This document shows positions 29,558 through 45,982 of a stretch of DNA of 63,917 nt, piece after piece. The position numbers and the translations under genes are program-made. The notes beneath the pieces are model-generated. The model searched no databases. It saw only the letters and a list, made by a program, of their open reading frames with translations, and had not been told where the DNA came from. The first letter of the stretch is position 1. Each line of letters opens with the position of its first letter. The DNA comes from Deltaproteobacteria bacterium (lineage in GTDB: Bacteria > Desulfobacterota > Binatia > Binatales > Binataceae): NCBI GenBank assembly GCA_021780225.1, contig JAJXZF010000058.1, positions 1 through 63,917 on the forward strand, read 5' to 3'.

Positions 29558-30889
29558 TCAGCGGATTGGCGGCTCGATCGGCAATTGCACAATCAGGTTG
29601 AGGCCCCATCCCTCCTCGACCCGGGCCTGAATTTTGCCGCCGTCGGCCTCGACCAGCGCGTGCGCGATATATCGTCCGAGCGCGGACGACCGCGCGCCAT
29701 CGACCGCCAAGTTCGGCCGGTCGAAAACGTGCTCGATTTCGTGCGGCGTCGCCTCCGGACCGGTGTCGCTAACTTCGACCACAATCCAATCGCCGAACTG
29801 CGAAGTTTGGAGCCGCACCTCGCCGGCCGGCGTGCGCCGCACGGCGCTGGTCACGAGGTTGGCGACGATCCGTTCAAGATGCAGCGGATCGAGGCTCGCC
29901 TTCGGCAATCCGCCGAGATCGACCCGCAGGCGCAAGCCCTTGAGCCGCGCTTCGATAGCGCAATGCTCGGCCGTTTCCGCGACAACGCCATTCGCGTCGA
30001 TCGGCCGCCAATTCGGCCGCAGGCGCTGTTCTTCCAGGAGATAGAGGTCGAGCACGTTTTTGACCAGCAGGTCCATCGAGGTGGTGGTCGACCAGACGCG
30101 GGCGAGCAGATTGCTGCGATCTTTTTCCTCCAGATCATCCTCGACCAGCAAGGTGACCAACCCGACCAGCGTGGCCAGCGGATTGCGAATATCGTGGGTC
30201 ATGGTCGCGATCTGGGTTTCGCGGAACGCCGCCGCCTCGGCCAATTGGATCAACTGCCGGCGCAGCCTGCGCCGATAACGATCAAGAAAGACGGCCGTGA
30301 ATTGCGAAAGCGTAAGCGCGGCGAGCAATCCGAGCAGGCGATGGATATCGAAGCGCGGCCCGATCGGAATAAAAAGTTCGCCGATCAAATAGAGCAGAAA
30401 ACAGGAAACGATGAGCAGCAGTTGCCATCGCCAGCCCCAGATCACGAATGCGGCCGTCGCGAACGGGCAAAGAATAATCGTGATATATCGGGTCGTGCTT
30501 TCGTGCGTGAGTCCGCTGATTCGGATGATCAGCGAGATCATCACGAGACAGGTCATCAATGACCAGAAACGCCAATGGGCACGGAACCCCGGCAGCCAGG
30601 TCAGGCCGAAGAACAGGAGCACGACGGCCAGGGCGGTCCAGTGGTAATCGAGCGCCAGCGCCGATTTTCCGGCGAGATGCGCGCGCGCGTCGATCGCGAT
30701 GTACGCGATGACGAAGAAGATTCCGACCGGGCCGGACTTCTTTAGAATATCTACCGCTTCAAGATTGTCGTCGAATTCCGCTTCGATCTGTTGCGGCGAG
30801 ACCTGTTTGGGGCGCACCGGCGCGACCGGTTTGTTTGCAACCTTGCGCGGACGATAAAACGCCCTCCGAGCTGAAGCGGCCGCCCCCAC
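29558..30889 (-). CDS. Membrane sensor histidine kinase
   Basis: The 443-residue protein has about six N-terminal membrane helices (residues about 50-200). The dimerisation/phosphorylation box is IATMTHDIRNPLATLVGLVT. The ATPase domain has LERIVANLVTSAVRRTPAG, VEVSDTGPEA, and a weak final Gly box. The usual second Asn of the N box is replaced by Ser (NLVTSAV), which may weaken ATP binding. GTG at 30889 lies 11 bp after the aminotransferase stop codon, so it is the last gene of the LuxE/LuxC operon. No partner receiver gene is adjacent. Confidence 0.9.
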   Translation of the reverse strand: MGAAASARRAFYRPRKVANKPVAPVRPKQVSPQQIEAEFDDNLEAVDILKKSGPVGIFFVIAYIAIDARAHLAGKSALALDYHWTALAVVLLFFGLTWLPGFRAHWRFWSLMTCLVMISLIIRISGLTHESTTRYITIILCPFATAAFVIWGWRWQLLLIVSCFLLYLIGELFIPIGPRFDIHRLLGLLAALTLSQFTAVFLDRYRRRLRRQLIQLAEAAAFRETQIATMTHDIRNPLATLVGLVTLLVEDDLEEKDRSNLLARVWSTTTSMDLLVKNVLDLYLLEEQRLRPNWRPIDANGVVAETAEHCAIEARLKGLRLRVDLGGLPKASLDPLHLERIVANLVTSAVRRTPAGEVRLQTSQFGDWIVVEVSDTGPEATPHEIEHVFDRPNLAVDGARSSALGRYIAHALVEADGGKIQARVEEGWGLNLIVQLPIEPPIR

Positions 30890-30900
30890 GATGTTTATCC

Positions 30901-32106
30901 CTACCCGCCCGCCGCTATTGCTTCAAGTGCATGCTTCATCGCGGCGAGCGCGAAATCCAATTCCGCTGTGGATATCGTTAACGGCGGCGCGAGTCTGACC
31001 ACGCGGTCAGCATTCAACGTCCAGTTGATCACGACGCCCCGGGCGATCGTCTCGGCGACAAAACGATGCGCCACGCCGGCCTGCGCGAACTCGATTCCAA
31101 TCAATAACCCAAGGCCGCGGACCGCCAGGATTTGACGTCCGACCAGCTTCCCAAGCTGGGCGCGGAACGCCGCTCCGGACCGCGCGGCGGTTTCCCATAA
31201 TCGATTCGACAAAATCTGATCGAAGGCGGCGCGGCCGGCGGCGCAAGAGACTGGATGGCCGCCGAAGGTAGTGATGTGGCCCAGCGGCGGATCGTGGGCC
31301 AACCGGCCTAAAATCTCGTCGCTTCCGCAAAACGCTCCGAGCGGCATCCCGCCGCCAAGCGCCTTGGCCAGCACGATCAGGTCGGGCCGGACGTCAAAAT
31401 GCTCCAGCGCGAACAGCCGCCCGGTGCGTCCGAAACCGGTCAGCACCTCGTCGAAAATCAGCAGCGCGCCGATTTGCGAGCAGCGTTCGCGCAGCGCGAG
31501 CATGAAGTCGCGCGACGGAATTCTGACGCCGCCCTCCGCCTGGATTGGTTCGATCACCACGGCCGCGACGCTTTCGTCGATCGCTTCGAGGACGGCGCCG
31601 TCGTCGAATGGCAGACGCCGCACCGGCCCGGGCAGCGGTTCAAAAGGCGCGCGAAACGCGGCGTTGCCCATCAGCGCCAACGCCGCCATCGTGTCGCCGT
31701 GATAAGCGCCGTCGAACGCAACGAAGGTCGTGCGGCCGGTGAATTTGCGCGCGGTCTTCAGCGCGCCCTCGATCGCTTCCGCGCCGCTGTTGGTGAAATA
31801 AACGCGGGATAAGTTGCCGGGCAGCGCCTCGGCAAGCCGCGCCGCATATTCCGCTTGCGCCGCGATTACATACTCGCCGTAAACCATCGCATGCAGATGG
31901 CGGCGCGATTGCCGCTCGATCGCGGCGAGCACGGCGGGATTTCCATGCCCGAGCGCGCTCACGCCGATTCCCGCGATCAGATCGAGATAGCGGCGGCCGT
32001 CGGCGCAGTACAGCCAGCATCCCTCGGCCCGTTCGATTTCCAGACCGATCGGCGCGTCGGAGGTTTGCGCCAGATGGCGCACAAAGGCGTCGCGCGCTCG
32101 GCTCAT
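30901..32106 (-). CDS. Class III PLP-dependent aminotransferase
   Basis: The 401-residue enzyme has the ornithine/GABA transaminase fold. Visible motifs are LDLIAGIGVSALGHGNPAVL, NSGAEAIEGALKTARKFTGR, FDGAYHGDTMAALA, the Asp in LLIFDEVLTGFGRTG, and the PLP Lys in LIVLAKALGGGMPLGAF. It interconverts an amine and an aldehyde. Its ATG overlaps the TGA of the LuxC-like gene by 4 bases. The LuxC-like gene would make an aldehyde, so the aminotransferase could convert fatty aldehydes into amines, or the reverse. This reading comes from gene order and is not proven. Confidence 0.9.
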   Translation of the reverse strand: MSRARDAFVRHLAQTSDAPIGLEIERAEGCWLYCADGRRYLDLIAGIGVSALGHGNPAVLAAIERQSRRHLHAMVYGEYVIAAQAEYAARLAEALPGNLSRVYFTNSGAEAIEGALKTARKFTGRTTFVAFDGAYHGDTMAALALMGNAAFRAPFEPLPGPVRRLPFDDGAVLEAIDESVAAVVIEPIQAEGGVRIPSRDFMLALRERCSQIGALLIFDEVLTGFGRTGRLFALEHFDVRPDLIVLAKALGGGMPLGAFCGSDEILGRLAHDPPLGHITTFGGHPVSCAAGRAAFDQILSNRLWETAARSGAAFRAQLGKLVGRQILAVRGLGLLIGIEFAQAGVAHRFVAETIARGVVINWTLNADRVVRLAPPLTISTAELDFALAAMKHALEAIAAGG

Positions 32107-33398
32107 GGCGAAGTTTTCAGCCGTTCGAGAAAAATGCCGCCGCCATGACGCCAATTCAGCGGCGGCGATTGCATCGCGCCCGGTTTGCAAATGTACGCGA
32201 CTTCAATCCGCTCGAGGATCTTGTGCAGATCGGCCCAACGGGTCGGCGGCGCCGCGAGCGCGAAGGCCTCAAAGCGGCCGGCGAATCGGCTTAAACGGTC
32301 ATACAATTCGTTATCGCCGGCAAAGCGTGCGACCGTAAGCGCGCGACCGCCGGGCGAGATTGTGAACTCCGCGCGATCGTCGAAGACGACGGTCCATCGA
32401 TACGGCTCGCCCCATCCGCCGCCCTCCAGCAATTCGACGCCGGCGTCGCCGCCCAGCATCCGCCAACGCGCGCTCTCGCGCATCCGCCTGATTGCGGCAG
32501 CGGCCTCCAAATCAAACCGCGAGGGCGGAGGCGTCCGCGCCGACCGGCGTTCGATCGCCGCCGCGAGCCGCCGCGCAAAATCCCGCGCCGCGCCCGCGTC
32601 CTGCGTTTCGATCATCGCCTGATGAGGCGACAGGCATCCTTGCTGTTCAAACAGTGCTAGGTCGCGCGCAATCGCGGCAGCCAACGCCGCGGCGTCGCCG
32701 TCGCTTATCCGATCGAATCCGGCGACGACTACGCCGCTGTAGCGGGCGCCGAAGCCGACCAGAGCACGGCTCGATCCGTCGCCGGCCGGCAGCCGGTTCA
32801 GATCGGCCAGCGTCAAATCGTCGCCGAAAGCGGCGATCCAATCGCAAGCGCGTCTGAACGCCGCGGTGGCCGCACGATTTTCGCGGCTCCAGTTCATCAC
32901 CGCGAGCCGTTCGCCGACTGCGGCGTCGGCCGCGCGCAAAGATTGCGCGAACGCCGCGAACGTCAACGGTTCCGGGCTCGCGGTTTTCAGAATCAAGCCG
33001 CGTCCGGAAAGCAGCGCCGCGACGATTTCATGCATTCCGGCGCCGGGAACATTGCCCGGCATCACCACGCCGATTAATTCATTGGCGACGGTCGCGGCCC
33101 GCGCGAAGTCGCGGATAGACTCCGCATCAAAGGGCGCGAACAGCGCGTCGAATGACTCTTCGAGCAGCGCTTCGCTCCATCCCCACGCCTGGACGAGCGC
33201 GGCGATAATCCGGCGGCGCGGCGCGAATTTCCGCTCGCGCCATCCGCCGAGCGTCGCCGTGAGCGCGCGGACGATGCGCGTCGAATCGAGCGGCGATTCC
33301 AGCACGCCGCGCAGTTCCGCAGCCCGCGCCTCGATCATCCGTTCGTCAAGCTGCGCGTCGCTCCGAACCGATGGCGCGGTTTCTTCAGCGCCGTTCAT
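32103..33398 (-). CDS. LuxC-like acyl-CoA/acyl-protein reductase
   Basis: The 431-residue protein resembles the LuxC fatty acid reductase component, an NADPH-dependent aldehyde-dehydrogenase-fold enzyme that reduces an acyl-thioester to aldehyde. It shows VMPGNVPGAGMHEIVAALLS, the GLILKTASPEPLTF segment, and the catalytic Cys in LFEQQGCLSPHQAMIE, the sequence seen in LuxC. It is a little shorter than Vibrio LuxC (about 480 residues). Its ATG overlaps the stop of the LuxE-like gene by 4 bases, and its stop overlaps the aminotransferase start. No luciferase genes are in the window. Confidence 0.88.
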   Translation of the reverse strand: MNGAEETAPSVRSDAQLDERMIEARAAELRGVLESPLDSTRIVRALTATLGGWRERKFAPRRRIIAALVQAWGWSEALLEESFDALFAPFDAESIRDFARAATVANELIGVVMPGNVPGAGMHEIVAALLSGRGLILKTASPEPLTFAAFAQSLRAADAAVGERLAVMNWSRENRAATAAFRRACDWIAAFGDDLTLADLNRLPAGDGSSRALVGFGARYSGVVVAGFDRISDGDAAALAAAIARDLALFEQQGCLSPHQAMIETQDAGAARDFARRLAAAIERRSARTPPPSRFDLEAAAAIRRMRESARWRMLGGDAGVELLEGGGWGEPYRWTVVFDDRAEFTISPGGRALTVARFAGDNELYDRLSRFAGRFEAFALAAPPTRWADLHKILERIEVAYICKPGAMQSPPLNWRHGGGIFLERLKTSP

Positions 33399-34510
33399 CG
33401 CCGATCCGCCGCCACCCGCGCGAGTTCCCGTTCGGCGAACTCATCGATCGCGAGCGCGCAACCGCGCGCCCCGCTCGCCGCGGCGCGTCCCAGAATCGCG
33501 ACCGCATCGCCCTGGACGATCCCGAAATCTTCGGTCATGAGCGCCGAAATCGAACCGGCATTGGCCAGATCGAAAAACGCCAGCATCCCGGCCGCGCCCG
33601 GCGCCGCCGGCGACATTATGGCCGGATCGAGCGCGACCGGCCGCATCCACGGCGGCGCGAGTTTCATCCGCGCGCCGGGCGTTCCAGCCGCGCCGGCGCA
33701 ATTGAAGGGCGTCGCGTCGTAAAGCTGCGAGCACAGTTCCGTCATTCCGTATTCGTTGATCGCGAGCGCCGGCGCCACGCCTAGCAATTGGCCCGCCGAT
33801 GCGACGACCGCCTCGGCGCCAAGCGGAATTATCTGACCCTTCGCGCCGCCCGTGTCCATGATGCGCGATCCGGCCGCCAGGCGAATCCGCGGCCCGTTGG
33901 CGCGCAGATGCTCGAACAGCGCAGCGAAGGACGCCGTCGTGCCGAGGATGCAGACTGGTTCGTCCCGCGCGGCCGTTTCGGCCAAAAATACCGCGGCGCG
34001 AGCGGCGTCAACCCCCTGCCGCGATGCGACGCATTCGACCGCGCCCGCTCCGAATTCCTCGATACACCAGCCGATCATTCGCGAAAGCGAAGATTCCGGC
34101 ATCCGATCCGCCGTGGGATGCATCGCGAGCATCGCGATGCGTGCGTCGTCCGGAAAGAGCATCCGTCGCAGATGGGCGATGGCGGCGGCGCGGTAGATTT
34201 CGGGTTTGGGCACGCGATGACGGCCGCGTTCGGCGAAACCTTTGGTCGTTCCGCTCGTCAGGAAGGTCAGGCCCGCGGCGGCGTCATCGGATATGTTCGC
34301 AACGTCCGCATATTTGAAGGCGAGCGTGCTCGCGTATGGAATGTTGGCGAGCCTGCGAACGTTCTCCGGATTGGCGTTGCGGCTTTGGCAATAGGCGCGG
34401 TAAACCGGGACATTGGCGAATTGAAAGCGAAACACGTCCAGAGCGAGCGCTTCGAACGATTCGGCGCCGGGCGATTCGATAAATCCGAGTACTTGTTCGT
34501 AAATCGACAT
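33395..34510 (-). CDS. LuxE-like acyl-protein synthetase
   Basis: The 371-residue protein matches LuxE in length and layout. The N-terminal FRFQFANVPVYRAYCQSR is followed by the AMP-binding-type FLTSGTTKGFAERGRHRVPK and a C-terminal INEYGMTELCSQLYD. LuxE activates a fatty acid with ATP and hands the acyl group to LuxC. As first gene of the operon it would start the pathway acid to acyl-enzyme to aldehyde. The ATG at 34510 has no strong Shine-Dalgarno. It is divergent from an exported-protein gene 162 bp away. Confidence 0.88.
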   Translation of the reverse strand: MSIYEQVLGFIESPGAESFEALALDVFRFQFANVPVYRAYCQSRNANPENVRRLANIPYASTLAFKYADVANISDDAAAGLTFLTSGTTKGFAERGRHRVPKPEIYRAAAIAHLRRMLFPDDARIAMLAMHPTADRMPESSLSRMIGWCIEEFGAGAVECVASRQGVDAARAAVFLAETAARDEPVCILGTTASFAALFEHLRANGPRIRLAAGSRIMDTGGAKGQIIPLGAEAVVASAGQLLGVAPALAINEYGMTELCSQLYDATPFNCAGAAGTPGARMKLAPPWMRPVALDPAIMSPAAPGAAGMLAFFDLANAGSISALMTEDFGIVQGDAVAILGRAAASGARGCALAIDEFAERELARVAADRR

Positions 34511-34672: not shown

Positions 34673-35125
34673 ATGAAGCAATTTATAGCGGGGGTGGTCG
34701 CGGGCGCGCTCGCGATCGGCGGGGTTGGGCTGGCGGCGACTGCGGCGGAACACAACGGAACTTTTTGGCGGCAACTGAGCGCTCCGGCCAAAGACAGTTA
34801 TGTCGCGGGCTATCGCGACGCGATGAACGTCAGCGTGGGCAAGCTCGACGATCTGAAAATTGCCGCGGATCTTTTTCACTGGCGCGGCGCCAACAAAATC
34901 CTGGGCCAGATCGATCGCGAGCTTTCCGGCGGCGGCCTGACTTCCGATGCGGCCGTCAAGCAGCTCGACGCGCTCTACTCAAATCCGAAATACGCCGAGC
35001 TCGATCTTGGCCAGGCGCTGGAGTTCCTCGCCGCGCGCACCGCGCCCGCCGATAACGCCGCGCCCGCCTCGGCGCCGGCCGATGCCGATCAAGCGCCCGG
35101 CGGCGTCACGGCGAAATCCAGGTAG
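34673..35125 (+). CDS. Small exported protein of unknown function
   Basis: The 150-residue product has a signal peptide (MKQFIAGVVAGALAIGGVGL, probable cleavage after AATAA). The mature domain has WRQLSAPAKDSYVAGYRDAM near its start and an Ala/Pro-rich C-terminal tail. The W..L....K..Y..GY pattern resembles small periplasmic helper or immunity-like domains, but I cannot assign a family. GGAGGGG precedes the ATG. It is divergent from the LuxE-like gene and could share regulation with it. Confidence 0.8.
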   Translation: MKQFIAGVVAGALAIGGVGLAATAAEHNGTFWRQLSAPAKDSYVAGYRDAMNVSVGKLDDLKIAADLFHWRGANKILGQIDRELSGGGLTSDAAVKQLDALYSNPKYAELDLGQALEFLAARTAPADNAAPASAPADADQAPGGVTAKSR

Positions 35126-42872: not shown

Positions 42873-44189
42873 ATGACGCAACTTGAAGCGGCCCGCAAAG
42901 GCTTGATTACCCGGCAGATGACGGAAGTCGCCGAGGACGAAGGGCTGCGGCCCGAAGAGATCCGCGCTCTGGTCGCCAGCGGCGAAGTGGTGATTCCACG
43001 CAATCATCATCATGAATTCCGCGCGATCGGCATCGGCAAACGGCTTCGGACCAAAGTCAACGCCAACATCGGCGCCTCGAATTTCCATCAGTTGGTCGAA
43101 GAAGAGATCGAAAAGCTTTACACGGCCGTGCGGTTTGGCGCGGATTCCGTGATGGACCTGTCGACCGGCACCGACCTCGATCAGATTCGGATGGAAGTGC
43201 TGTCGCGCAGCCCTGTGATTCTCGGCACGGTGCCGATTTACCAGGTCGCGTCGGAGCGTTCGATCATGGAGCTGGAGGCGCCGAATTTTCTCGACGTGAT
43301 CGAGCGTCAGGCGCGCCAAGGGGTCGATTACATGACGCTGCATTGCGGCGTCACGCGCGAAACGGTCCGCAAGCTGCGCGGCCACGGCCGGATCGAGGGA
43401 ATCGTCTCGCGCGGCGGCGCGCTGCTGGCGGCGTGGATCGAACGCACCGGGAACGAGAATCCGCTTTACGAGCATTTCGACGAAGTTTGCGCGATTTTGC
43501 GCGAGCACGACGTTACGATTTCGCTGGGCGACGGCCTGCGTCCGGGCGCCACCGGCGACGCGACCGATCGCGGCCAGCTCGCGGAGCTGCTGGTGCTCGG
43601 AGAACTTACCGAACGGGCGCGCGCGCTCGGCGTGCAGGTGATGATCGAAGGACCGGGCCATGTGCCGCTCGATCAGATCGAAGCCAACGTCAAGCTCGAA
43701 AAGCGGGTTTGCGGCGGCGCGCCGTTTTACGTGCTGGGTCCGCTGACCTGCGATGTCGCGCCCGGCTACGACCATATTACCGGCGCGATCGGCGGCGCGA
43801 TCGCCTCGGCCGCCGGCACCGATTTTCTCTGCTACGTCACTCCCGCGGAGCATTTGCGGCTCCCCGATATCGAGGATGTGCGCGAAGGCGTTATCGCCAC
43901 GCGGATCGCGGCCCATTCGGGCGATCTGGTCAAAGGCGTGCGCGCCGCCAAGGTCTGGAACGACCAGATGTCGCGCTACCGCAAGGCGCTCAATTGGGAA
44001 GGGATGTACGCGATGGCGATGGATCCGGACAAAGCGCGCCGCTACAAGGAAGAGAGCGAGGCGGCCGGATCGAACGTCTGCAGCATGTGCGGCTCGCTCT
44101 GTTCGATCAATATCGACAACGCCGCGATCAAATTCACGCGCAAGCGGGCGCTGGAACAGGTGGAAACCCATGCCGCCGCGGGTCGATGA
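42873..44189 (+). CDS. thiC: Phosphomethylpyrimidine synthase, short form
   Basis: The 438-residue radical-SAM enzyme converts aminoimidazole ribotide to HMP phosphate in thiamin synthesis. It shows VNANIGASNFHQLVEEEIEK, DSVMDLSTGTDLDQIR, GLRPGATGDATDRGQLAEL, MIEGPGHVPLDQIEANV, and a C-terminal cluster motif SNVCSMCGSLCSIN. The third Cys is one residue closer than in E. coli ThiC (CSMCGPKFC). The protein also lacks the long N-terminal domain of enterobacterial ThiC, as in anaerobe-type short forms. The paralogue BzaF (5-hydroxybenzimidazole synthase) is a less likely alternative. Confidence 0.9.
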   Translation: MTQLEAARKGLITRQMTEVAEDEGLRPEEIRALVASGEVVIPRNHHHEFRAIGIGKRLRTKVNANIGASNFHQLVEEEIEKLYTAVRFGADSVMDLSTGTDLDQIRMEVLSRSPVILGTVPIYQVASERSIMELEAPNFLDVIERQARQGVDYMTLHCGVTRETVRKLRGHGRIEGIVSRGGALLAAWIERTGNENPLYEHFDEVCAILREHDVTISLGDGLRPGATGDATDRGQLAELLVLGELTERARALGVQVMIEGPGHVPLDQIEANVKLEKRVCGGAPFYVLGPLTCDVAPGYDHITGAIGGAIASAAGTDFLCYVTPAEHLRLPDIEDVREGVIATRIAAHSGDLVKGVRAAKVWNDQMSRYRKALNWEGMYAMAMDPDKARRYKEESEAAGSNVCSMCGSLCSINIDNAAIKFTRKRALEQVETHAAAGR

Positions 44190-44770: not shown

Positions 44771-45982
44771 ATGGCTAAAAGCTCGAAGAACATTATCGAC
44801 GAGGCGCGGGCCTCGATTAAGGCGATCGATAGCGATGAAGCGCGGCGGATGCTCGACAAGGCGGGTGTAGTGCTGATCGACGTCCGCGAAAGCGACGAAT
44901 GGCGCCAGGGCCATATTCCGCAGGCGGTCGGGATTCCGCGCGGTTTCCTGGAACTGCGAATCGAGGAAAAGGTCCCCGATCACAAGGCGCCGATCATTTT
45001 GCAGTGCGCGTCGGGCACGCGCTCGCTGCTGGCGGCGCGCGCGCTCAAGGAACTTGGTTACGAGAACCTTTACAATCTGACCGGCGGCTTCAACGCCTGG
45101 AAGGATCGCGGCCTGCCGTGGGTCGCCGATCGCGCCTTCACGCAGGACGAGATCACGCGCTACTCGCGCCATTTCGTGATTCCCGAAGTCGGTGAGAAGG
45201 GGCAGGCGAAGCTGCTCGATTCGAAGGTGCTGATTTTGGGCGCGGGCGCGCTCGGCTCGCCGACTTCGCTCTATCTCGCGGCGGCGGGCGTCGGCACGAT
45301 CGGCCTGGTCGATTTCGACGTGGTCGATCTCTCGAACCTGCAGCGTCAGATTATCCATACGACCGACCGGGTCGGGATTCCCAAGACCGAATCGGCGCAG
45401 AAGCAGATCAACGCGCTCAATCCCGGCATCAAGGTGAACCGGCACGACCTGCGCCTGAGCTCGGAAAACGTGATGGATATAATCGCGGGCTACGACGTGG
45501 TGGTGAATTGCGGCGATAATTTTCCGACCCGCTATTTGATCAACGACGCCTGCGTGATCGCGAAAAAGCCGCTGGTGGACGGCGCGATTTTCCGCTTCGA
45601 GGGCAACGCCACGGTCTTCCATCCCGCCGCCGGCGGACCCTGCTACCGATGCCTCTATCCGGAGCCGGCCCCGCCCGACATGGCGCCCTCGTGCGCGGAA
45701 GCGGGCGTGCTGGGCGCGCTGCCCGGACTGATCGGCTCGATCGAAGCGCTCGAGGCGATCAAGCTGATTTTGGGCGCGGGCAAGCCGCTGATGGGCAAGA
45801 TGGTCTATTTCGACACGCTTTCGTCGGACTATGTGCGGGTGCTCAAGATCCGGCGCAATCCGGATTGCCCGGTATGCAGCGACCATCCGACGCAGACCGG
45901 CCTTATCGATTACGAAGCGTTTTGCGGACTGGCGCCGGCCGCGAACGGCGCCGATCATGCGGCCGCGGCGGCGGGACGCTGA
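44771..45982 (+). CDS. moeB: Rhodanese-E1 fusion, sulfur-carrier adenylyltransferase/sulfurtransferase
   Basis: The 403-residue protein starts with a rhodanese domain (residues about 15-120; VVLIDVRESDEWRQGHIPQA, active Cys in LQCASGTRSLLAAR). A MoeB/ThiF domain follows (LILGAGALGSPTSLYLAAAG, VNCGDNFPTRYLIND), with zinc ligands CYRCLYP and CPVC and the E1 Cys in APSCAEAGVLGALPG. It adenylates and thiolates the C terminus of MoaD- or ThiS-like carriers. In most MoeBR proteins the rhodanese is C-terminal; here the order is reversed. A carrier candidate is at 11552-11815. Confidence 0.88.
   Translation: MAKSSKNIIDEARASIKAIDSDEARRMLDKAGVVLIDVRESDEWRQGHIPQAVGIPRGFLELRIEEKVPDHKAPIILQCASGTRSLLAARALKELGYENLYNLTGGFNAWKDRGLPWVADRAFTQDEITRYSRHFVIPEVGEKGQAKLLDSKVLILGAGALGSPTSLYLAAAGVGTIGLVDFDVVDLSNLQRQIIHTTDRVGIPKTESAQKQINALNPGIKVNRHDLRLSSENVMDIIAGYDVVVNCGDNFPTRYLINDACVIAKKPLVDGAIFRFEGNATVFHPAAGGPCYRCLYPEPAPPDMAPSCAEAGVLGALPGLIGSIEALEAIKLILGAGKPLMGKMVYFDTLSSDYVRVLKIRRNPDCPVCSDHPTQTGLIDYEAFCGLAPAANGADHAAAAAGR

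Follow-up and report, generated by a model that had tools for sequence, protein, structure and literature searches.

A LuxE–LuxC–aminotransferase gene unit conserved in much of the class Binatia and its candidate role in converting a carboxylic acid into a primary amine

Organisation of the locus and catalytic residues

The locus described here occupies positions 29558-34510 of a 63,917-nucleotide stretch of DNA (the window; contig JAJXZF010000058.1 of assembly GCA_021780225.1) from a Deltaproteobacteria bacterium of the class Binatia, phylum Desulfobacterota, whose genome assembly comprises 3.8 Mb in 118 contigs and is 96.9% complete. It holds four minus-strand genes encoding, in order, relatives of the bioluminescence proteins LuxE and LuxC, a class III aminotransferase (AT) and a sensor histidine kinase (Table 1). 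The first three genes are joined by two ATGA overlaps (LuxE/LuxC and LuxC/AT), and the kinase begins with a GTG at 30889, 11 bp past the AT stop codon. The AT start was taken to be the ATG at 32106, while a mechanical list of open reading frames has an upstream TTG at 32190. A first-pass annotation, made from the DNA alone, had described the same layout; its coordinates, strand, gene order, overlaps and 11-bp gap were all correct on re-check, Pfam agreed with each of its four gene assignments, and the motifs it had picked out (FLTSGTTKG in LuxE and QQGCLSPHQ in LuxC) are present. Its statement that luxA, luxB and luxD are missing holds for the 38 of 56 window frames scanned with Pfam, which include every frame above 240 aa and gave no match to a luciferase or LuxD family. 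The search for luxA and luxB covered the window only, and a genome search for LuxD (PF02273) returned no match but was also blank in 14 control genomes, so that its genome-wide absence is not inferable.

Both reductase components belong to the families to which they were assigned, LuxE scoring 45.3 bits against PF04443 (gathering cut-off 24.9) and LuxC 130.9 bits against PF05893 (cut-off 21), and the AT scored 340.1 bits against PF00202, which places it among the class III aminotransferases. Residue conservation was assessed on alignments filtered for length and internal stops, which retained 48 of 58 LuxE, 54 of 57 LuxC, 42 of 44 AT and 19 of 20 kinase rows, several fused proteins being dropped. 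Cys351 (codon 33458-33460), in the C-terminal RGC motif of LuxE, was kept in all 36 aligned rows from the class and in all 18 of a further alignment (A2). We take this residue to be the acyl relay site of the lux LuxE. The adenylation loop was recognisable in every LuxE row of the class except one (L036). In LuxC, the catalytic Cys255 (codon 32634-32636) and Asn116 were found in 54 of 54 aligned rows. Elsewhere in the phylum, Cys351 was present in nine of nine LuxE rows with an adjoining LuxC and missing from three of three aligned rows without LuxC nearby; to judge from these alignments, the thiols of LuxE and LuxC seem to be conserved where the two proteins are found together. Three LuxE homologues (L119, L120 and L121) have no LuxC match in the stretch fetched and also lack the C-terminal cysteine, and may work as free ligases.

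Table 1. Positions of the four genes in the window and of related plasmid operons (L numbers are locus handles)
Feature	Position	Strand	Description
LuxE-like ATP-dependent acyl-protein synthetase	33395..34510	-	371 aa; PF04443 E=7.5e-12; PDB 7xc6 chain E (LuxE) E=1.7e-12
LuxC-like acyl-thioester reductase	32103..33398	-	431 aa; PF05893 E=7.2e-38; PDB 7xc6 chain A E=2.4e-7
Class III pyridoxal 5'-phosphate (PLP) aminotransferase (AT)	30901..32106	-	401 aa; Aminotran_3 PF00202 E=1.9e-101
Sensor histidine kinase, degenerate N and G2 boxes	29558..30889	-	443 aa; HisKA PF00512 E=1.8e-9 and HATPase_c PF02518 E=2.2e-14
LuxE-LuxC-SDR (short-chain dehydrogenase/reductase) plasmid operon, Pantoea dispersa	L131 6271-9816		thiamin pyrophosphate (TPP) riboswitch upstream
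LuxE-LuxC-SDR plasmid operon, Azospirillum ramasamyi	L132 6188-12324		TPP riboswitch upstream
LuxE-LuxC-SDR plasmid operon, Levilactobacillus brevis	L135 2947-7878		TPP riboswitch upstream
LuxE-LuxC-SDR plasmid operon, Niallia taxi	L134 2180-7766		TPP riboswitch upstream

Conservation and natural fusions of the unit

The presence of the three enzymes was surveyed in 148 genomes of the host's class (thresholds E<=1e-110 for the AT and 1e-3 for LuxE and LuxC), the strict AT threshold counting short AT pieces as absent. The AT was found in 100 genomes, LuxE in 105 and LuxC in 103; all three genes co-occurred in 97 genomes, 41 contained none and only 10 contained a part of the set. Nine of these ten partial genomes are split into 380 to 1200 contigs and the tenth into 160; one genome counted as partial (G084) carries an AT piece, corresponding to window residues 8-319, that is fused to LuxC. 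Families f2 and f12, and genus g2 within the host's own family, contributed no match. Within the 97 complete genomes, LuxE and LuxC lie on one strand with a gap below 1.5 kb in 89 and LuxC and the AT in 87, both arrangements being found together in 79; some of the remainder are split by contig ends, and in G010, G026 and G044 the AT is displaced from the unit yet present. The first-pass annotation had left it to genomes of relatives whether the gene order is conserved; since 79 of the 97 genomes with all three genes show it, a chance arrangement is unlikely, and the LuxE–LuxC–AT unit is real and conserved.

In a phylogenetic tree, the 42 operon ATs formed one group (support 98/98) apart from ArgD, AstC, PatA, GabT and BioA of E. 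coli and from five paralogues of their own, although several of the reference sequences sit on long branches and how these relate to one another is uncertain. Inside the group the ATs sorted broadly by family, as descent would give. Across 395 sampled genomes of the phylum, an AT orthologue (E<=1e-100) was present in 15, all of them from the host's class, whereas LuxE was present in 32, of which 17 lie outside it. Fourteen of these 17 outside genomes were viewed, and LuxC adjoins LuxE in 10 of them; none of the 14 loci gave an AT match within the stretch fetched, which is shorter than 5 kb in three. At one such phylum locus (L110 880-10913), LuxE and LuxC are clustered with genes that Pfam, applied to L110 only, assigned to a B12 radical SAM protein, a homocitrate-synthase-like HMGL protein, an aconitase-family protein, a flavoprotein and a U32 peptidase-family protein, and clusters in other families of the phylum (L112, L114 and L117) resemble it by look.

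Gene fusions were looked for in 67 records, comprising the window, 40 plus 6 further loci and 20 loci picked partly for their long open frames, which makes the counts minimum values that should not be read as rates. In 6 loci of family f1, one open frame (775 to 853 codons) spans both LuxE and LuxC. Frames that join LuxC to the AT were found at 12 loci, every one in family f6, and in each of the 12 both the LuxC cysteine motif and the HGDT motif of the AT are intact, while the linkers vary in length. In a thirteenth f6 genome (G496), the end of LuxC and the AT share a reported open frame of 602 codons. We judge the LuxC–AT fusions to be the strongest evidence that the AT takes the aldehyde made by LuxC.

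Taken with the conserved order and the catalytic residues, these fusions make it probable that the first three genes form a system leading from an acid through an aldehyde to a primary amine. Going by what is known of the families, LuxE would adenylate a free carboxylic acid with ATP and load the acyl group onto Cys351, LuxC would take it over on Cys255 and use NAD(P)H to reduce the thioester, giving the aldehyde, and the AT would capture this reactive product and convert it to a primary amine, with glutamate as the likely donor. The first-pass annotation had allowed that the AT might instead work in reverse. In such a scheme the AT would deaminate a long-chain amine and LuxC–LuxE would oxidise the aldehyde. 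Transamination is generally reversible, but LuxE-type enzymes, as a family, spend ATP; the window LuxE retains the adenylation loop and C-terminal cysteine that serve ATP-driven acid activation in lux, and a catabolic route would need just an aldehyde dehydrogenase. We regard this reverse flow as scarcely credible.

The kinase is a family-level addition and stands outside the class-wide core. It comes after the AT in 20 of the 32 loci of family f1, some of which end too early to show it, as against 0 of 9 other loci of the class, and under looser clustering it was counted in 21 loci. Here, and at many loci of the host's own family, it is probably transcribed together with the three enzyme genes. 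The degenerate N box reported initially is indeed there (NLVTSA), and the G2 box is degenerate as well; the conserved core, on the other hand, does not extend to this gene, which had been drawn into the pathway. All 19 kinase rows have the phosphoacceptor His232 and one of the 19 has the second N-box Asn; in the window's genus the G2 box is altered. Judging by these motifs, kinase activity is perhaps weak or nil, and the protein could either sense the need for the amine in its own family only or be a non-catalytic remnant.

Upstream of LuxE, across a gap of 162 bp, a divergent plus-strand gene (34673-35125) encodes a 150-aa protein with a signal-peptide-like start and no Pfam match at E<=0.01; near its place, a comparison of 12 loci of family f1 gave a cluster of minus-strand open reading frames. 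Nothing past the unit is conserved class-wide that could serve as a clue to the use of the amine. Judged by eye from their sequences, the neighbours appear to be thiL-, larB-, CorC/CBS- and ABC1-like genes, with a prfB-like gene in other families. A PRISE-like gene on the opposite strand lies between LuxC and the AT at one f5 locus (L066). In the window, ThiC is encoded at 42876-44117 (+), about 8 kb beyond the operon, followed at 44771 by a ThiF-family gene, and ThiC is also found about 8 kb from the operon on one contig of genome G004. ThiC next to the operon is probably a neighbour at the level of the genus only.

The aminotransferase pocket and the nature of the acid

The structural model of the AT (pLDDT 85.5) was most similar to 1vef (VIA Z 48.1) and YgjG (4uox; VIA Z 46.8), and PigE (4ppm) reached a VIA Z of 45.5. 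Lys248 (codon 31363-31365) should be the lysine that binds PLP, and Asp138 (codon 31693-31695) occupies the position of an Arg found in several amino-acid transaminases. Asp138, Leu275, Leu364, Glu191 and Arg371 were each present in 42 of 42 aligned operon ATs, and all 42 keep the Glu–Arg pair used for glutamate and 2-oxoglutarate. Position 222 is Leu, Ile, Val or Met in every operon AT and Gln in ArgD, PatA, GabT and AstC; the position of YgjG Phe327 is invariably Leu, compared to Gly in ArgD, AstC and GabT, and that of YgjG Leu419 is Leu throughout. In the portion of Cha et al. available (PMC4244111), this Arg is described as holding the substrate carboxylate, and Phe327 and Leu419 as giving YgjG a hydrophobic entrance. 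The exchange of this Arg for Asp and the hydrophobic entrance residues together favour a substrate with a hydrophobic body and no carboxylate at its far end, and the pocket, as read from the alignment, would leave the chain length undefined.

The AT could alternatively be an ordinary transaminase of amino acids or diamines (acetylornithine, ornithine, GABA (gamma-aminobutyrate) or putrescine) that merely adjoins LuxC. Its top NCBIfam scores include those to argD models (344 bits) and to a putrescine aminotransferase model (303 bits), and 1vef and YgjG lead the structural matches. However, it missed the curated cut-offs for acetylornithine, putrescine, GABA and DAPA (7,8-diaminopelargonate) transaminases as well as for PigE, with 344 bits against a cut-off of 410 for TIGR00707 (ArgD), 271.8 against 658.65 for TIGR03372 (putrescine aminotransferase) and 287.8 against 850 for NF053554 (PigE). 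Further points against an ordinary transaminase are the Asp in place of Arg in 42 of 42 sequences, the LuxC–AT fusions at 12 loci of one family and the joint absence of the AT with LuxE and LuxC from 41 of 148 genomes. The genome moreover encodes a true ArgD on another contig, which scored 493.5 bits and thus passed the cut-off. An identity as ArgD is ruled out by the score, the invariant Asp138 and this separate gene, and we consider the wider group of ordinary transaminases very improbable. An AT acting on ornithine or GABA, which the first-pass annotation had named as the outcome that would contradict it, did not appear, and the pocket residues would argue against ornithine, acetylornithine and GABA alike.

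Several observations weigh against an acid-to-amine system acting on fatty acids. The curated NCBI equivalogs of the lux enzymes were far missed (54.7 of 550 bits for LuxE and 38.2 of 750 bits for LuxC; NF052244 and NF052251), and the LuxE adenylation loop of L036 is scrambled, perhaps by an assembly error. The presence table tracks kinship, so that the 97 genomes stand for far fewer independent events. No lipid gene was found to accompany the unit; besides LuxE, LuxC, the AT and, in family f1, the kinase and the small divergent gene, the neighbours differ between groups. As for the pocket, BioA likewise has Asp at position 138 and acts on a different substrate. The best AT match among plasmid records, from Aureibacter tunicatorum (L164 14424-16185; 44% identical), has the MVYGE and TTFGGHP motifs and Leu364 in common with the window AT. 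Of 16 positions compared, 12 carry the window's residue, but 138 is Asn, 222 is Gln and 191 is Asp. It adjoins a GNAT gene, and the annotation within 15 kb shows neither LuxE nor LuxC, which indicates that much of the pocket exists without coupling to LuxE–LuxC.

A further point of this kind comes from plasmids. LuxC matches in plasmid records were found in Pantoea, Azospirillum, Priestia, Niallia and lactobacilli, and LuxE matches in the same groups and one Pseudomonas. Five of these loci were opened (Pantoea, Azospirillum, Priestia, Niallia and Levilactobacillus), and an SDR gene lies downstream of LuxE–LuxC in all five. It directly follows LuxC in Pantoea, Levilactobacillus and Niallia (where it is unannotated and was found by tblastn), while in Azospirillum and Priestia three ATP-binding cassette (ABC) transporter genes stand between them. 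ABC transporter genes or a xanthine/uracil-family permease occur at four of the five loci, and the binding protein of Azospirillum is NMT1/THI5-like. A TPP riboswitch (58.9-85 bits) lies upstream on the same strand in four of the five, 68 bp from LuxE in Pantoea and 150 bp in Azospirillum; in Levilactobacillus it precedes a permease gene that itself precedes LuxE, and in Niallia two riboswitches in tandem stand before the same kind of permease. The Priestia locus showed none at the gathering score. The plasmid LuxE proteins are 28-34% identical to that of the window (four rows: Pantoea, Azospirillum, Priestia and Levilactobacillus). In the four operons with a riboswitch, LuxE and LuxC probably act as a carboxylate reductase in the salvage of thiamin precursors. 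That such relatives lie in TPP-riboswitch operons means that LuxE–LuxC as such does not imply a fatty acid.

A rival explanation is that the window enzymes perform the same chemistry on a small non-fatty acid, such as a vitamin-related heterocycle, whose aldehyde is aminated and not reduced. The plasmid loci with their SDR genes, transporters or permeases and riboswitches speak for it, as do the ThiC gene of the window (42876-44117) and a thiL-like gene, read by eye from the sequence, near the operon in 14 loci. Against it, the 1.5 kb around 20 LuxE loci, of which 11 belong to the class, contained no TPP riboswitch at the gathering score, and window positions 20000-45000 gave no Rfam match to it at E<=1. 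The genome's single TPP riboswitch match lies on another contig, upstream of genes that we take to be thiG-thiE. ThiC occurs in 135 of 148 class genomes, and so also in most of those without the operon; TenA, present in 108, occurs in the operon-less families f2 and f12 and is not found, for example, in the operon-bearing f4. Thiamin as the purpose of the window operon is unsupported by the riboswitch scans and by the presence of ThiC and TenA. The entrance residues of the AT are, in addition, hydrophobic. A small acid appears, on these grounds, improbable.

We continue to favour conversion of an acid into an amine on a hydrophobic, most likely fatty, chain. The view of the first-pass annotation that the AT works on the aldehyde has gained from the conserved order, the LuxC–AT fusions and the pocket. 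Its long-chain fatty substrate, by comparison, is not established in the face of the low equivalog scores and the plasmid SDR operons, and we see a long-chain fatty acid as a plausible substrate about which doubt still slightly exceeds confidence.

Relation to known systems and possible significance

The closest counterpart in the literature is the TamA–TamH pair of Pseudoalteromonas tunicata. According to the part of PMC9594044 available, TamH is a fusion of a transaminase (TA) and an NADH-dependent thioester reductase (TR) that, together with TamA, converts a C12 acid to the C12 amine with L-Glu as donor and thereby makes the fatty amine of tambjamine YP1, and relatives of its TA domain are YgjG, PigE, ArgD and CrmG. 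The unit described here is similar in joining ATP activation, thioester reduction and class III transamination, in having a reductase–transaminase fusion (in f6), and in that YgjG, PigE and ArgD are among the best matches of the window AT. It differs in that TamA, as far as that text goes, is an ANL fusion with an acyl carrier protein (ACP) and TamH a TA-TR fusion, whereas here the LuxE and LuxC families are used and no carrier protein was seen beside them. PigE of prodigiosin biosynthesis is likewise related, its AT domain being 31% identical in the structural match, but this AT is a domain of a larger protein, and the window AT falls far short of the PigE cut-off given above.

With the LuxC–LuxE of the lux system (PDB 7xc6), the window proteins share both families, the adenylation loop, and the C-terminal and catalytic cysteines; unlike in lux, the equivalog cut-offs are far missed, an AT comes next, and the 38 window frames scanned gave no match to a luciferase family. 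The plasmid operons have the same first two genes in the same order, but an SDR in place of the AT, often transporters, and, except in Priestia, where none was found, a TPP riboswitch. Flagellin glycosylation islands also contain LuxE and LuxC with no luciferase (PMC4875605, PMC7874193); they differ from the present unit in carrying genes for ACP, FabG, ligase and glycosyltransferase, and the aminotransferases that PMC4875605 names are of the PseC and DegT types.

The novelty claimed in the first-pass annotation was overstated, given that luciferase-free LuxE/LuxC (PMC4875605, PMC7874193) and a fatty-amine cascade (PMC9594044) are, on the portions available, already in print. The combination itself was unmatched: no paper describing a LuxE–LuxC–aminotransferase unit was among the matches listed from the open PMC literature, outside which subscription journals mostly lie. 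The parts are thus known separately, as luciferase-free LuxE–LuxC and as fatty-amine cascades, and what did not appear among the literature matches listed is their combination, its conservation over most families of the class and the natural fusions. Nor was there, among the matches listed, a paper on a LuxE–LuxC reductase in vitamin B1 metabolism, to which the TPP-riboswitch operons point.

As to the end use of the amine, a lipid or signal common to much of the class would fit. A broader and, taken whole, unlikely extension of this idea is that a LuxE–LuxC–AT complex, fused in some families, provides much of the class with a near-core, vertically inherited long-chain fatty-amine pathway for an undescribed membrane lipid or signal, and that LuxE–LuxC serves generally as a module for reducing carboxylates, the product depending on the third partner (luciferase, SDR or AT). 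If the acid-to-amine system is as proposed, the reductase pair known from bioluminescence would be only one use of a portable module that turns a carboxylate into an aldehyde. There would also be an enzymatic route from acid to primary amine without an adjoining carrier protein gene, for which natural LuxC–AT fusions are available, and a trait of most families of the class would become testable with three small enzymes.

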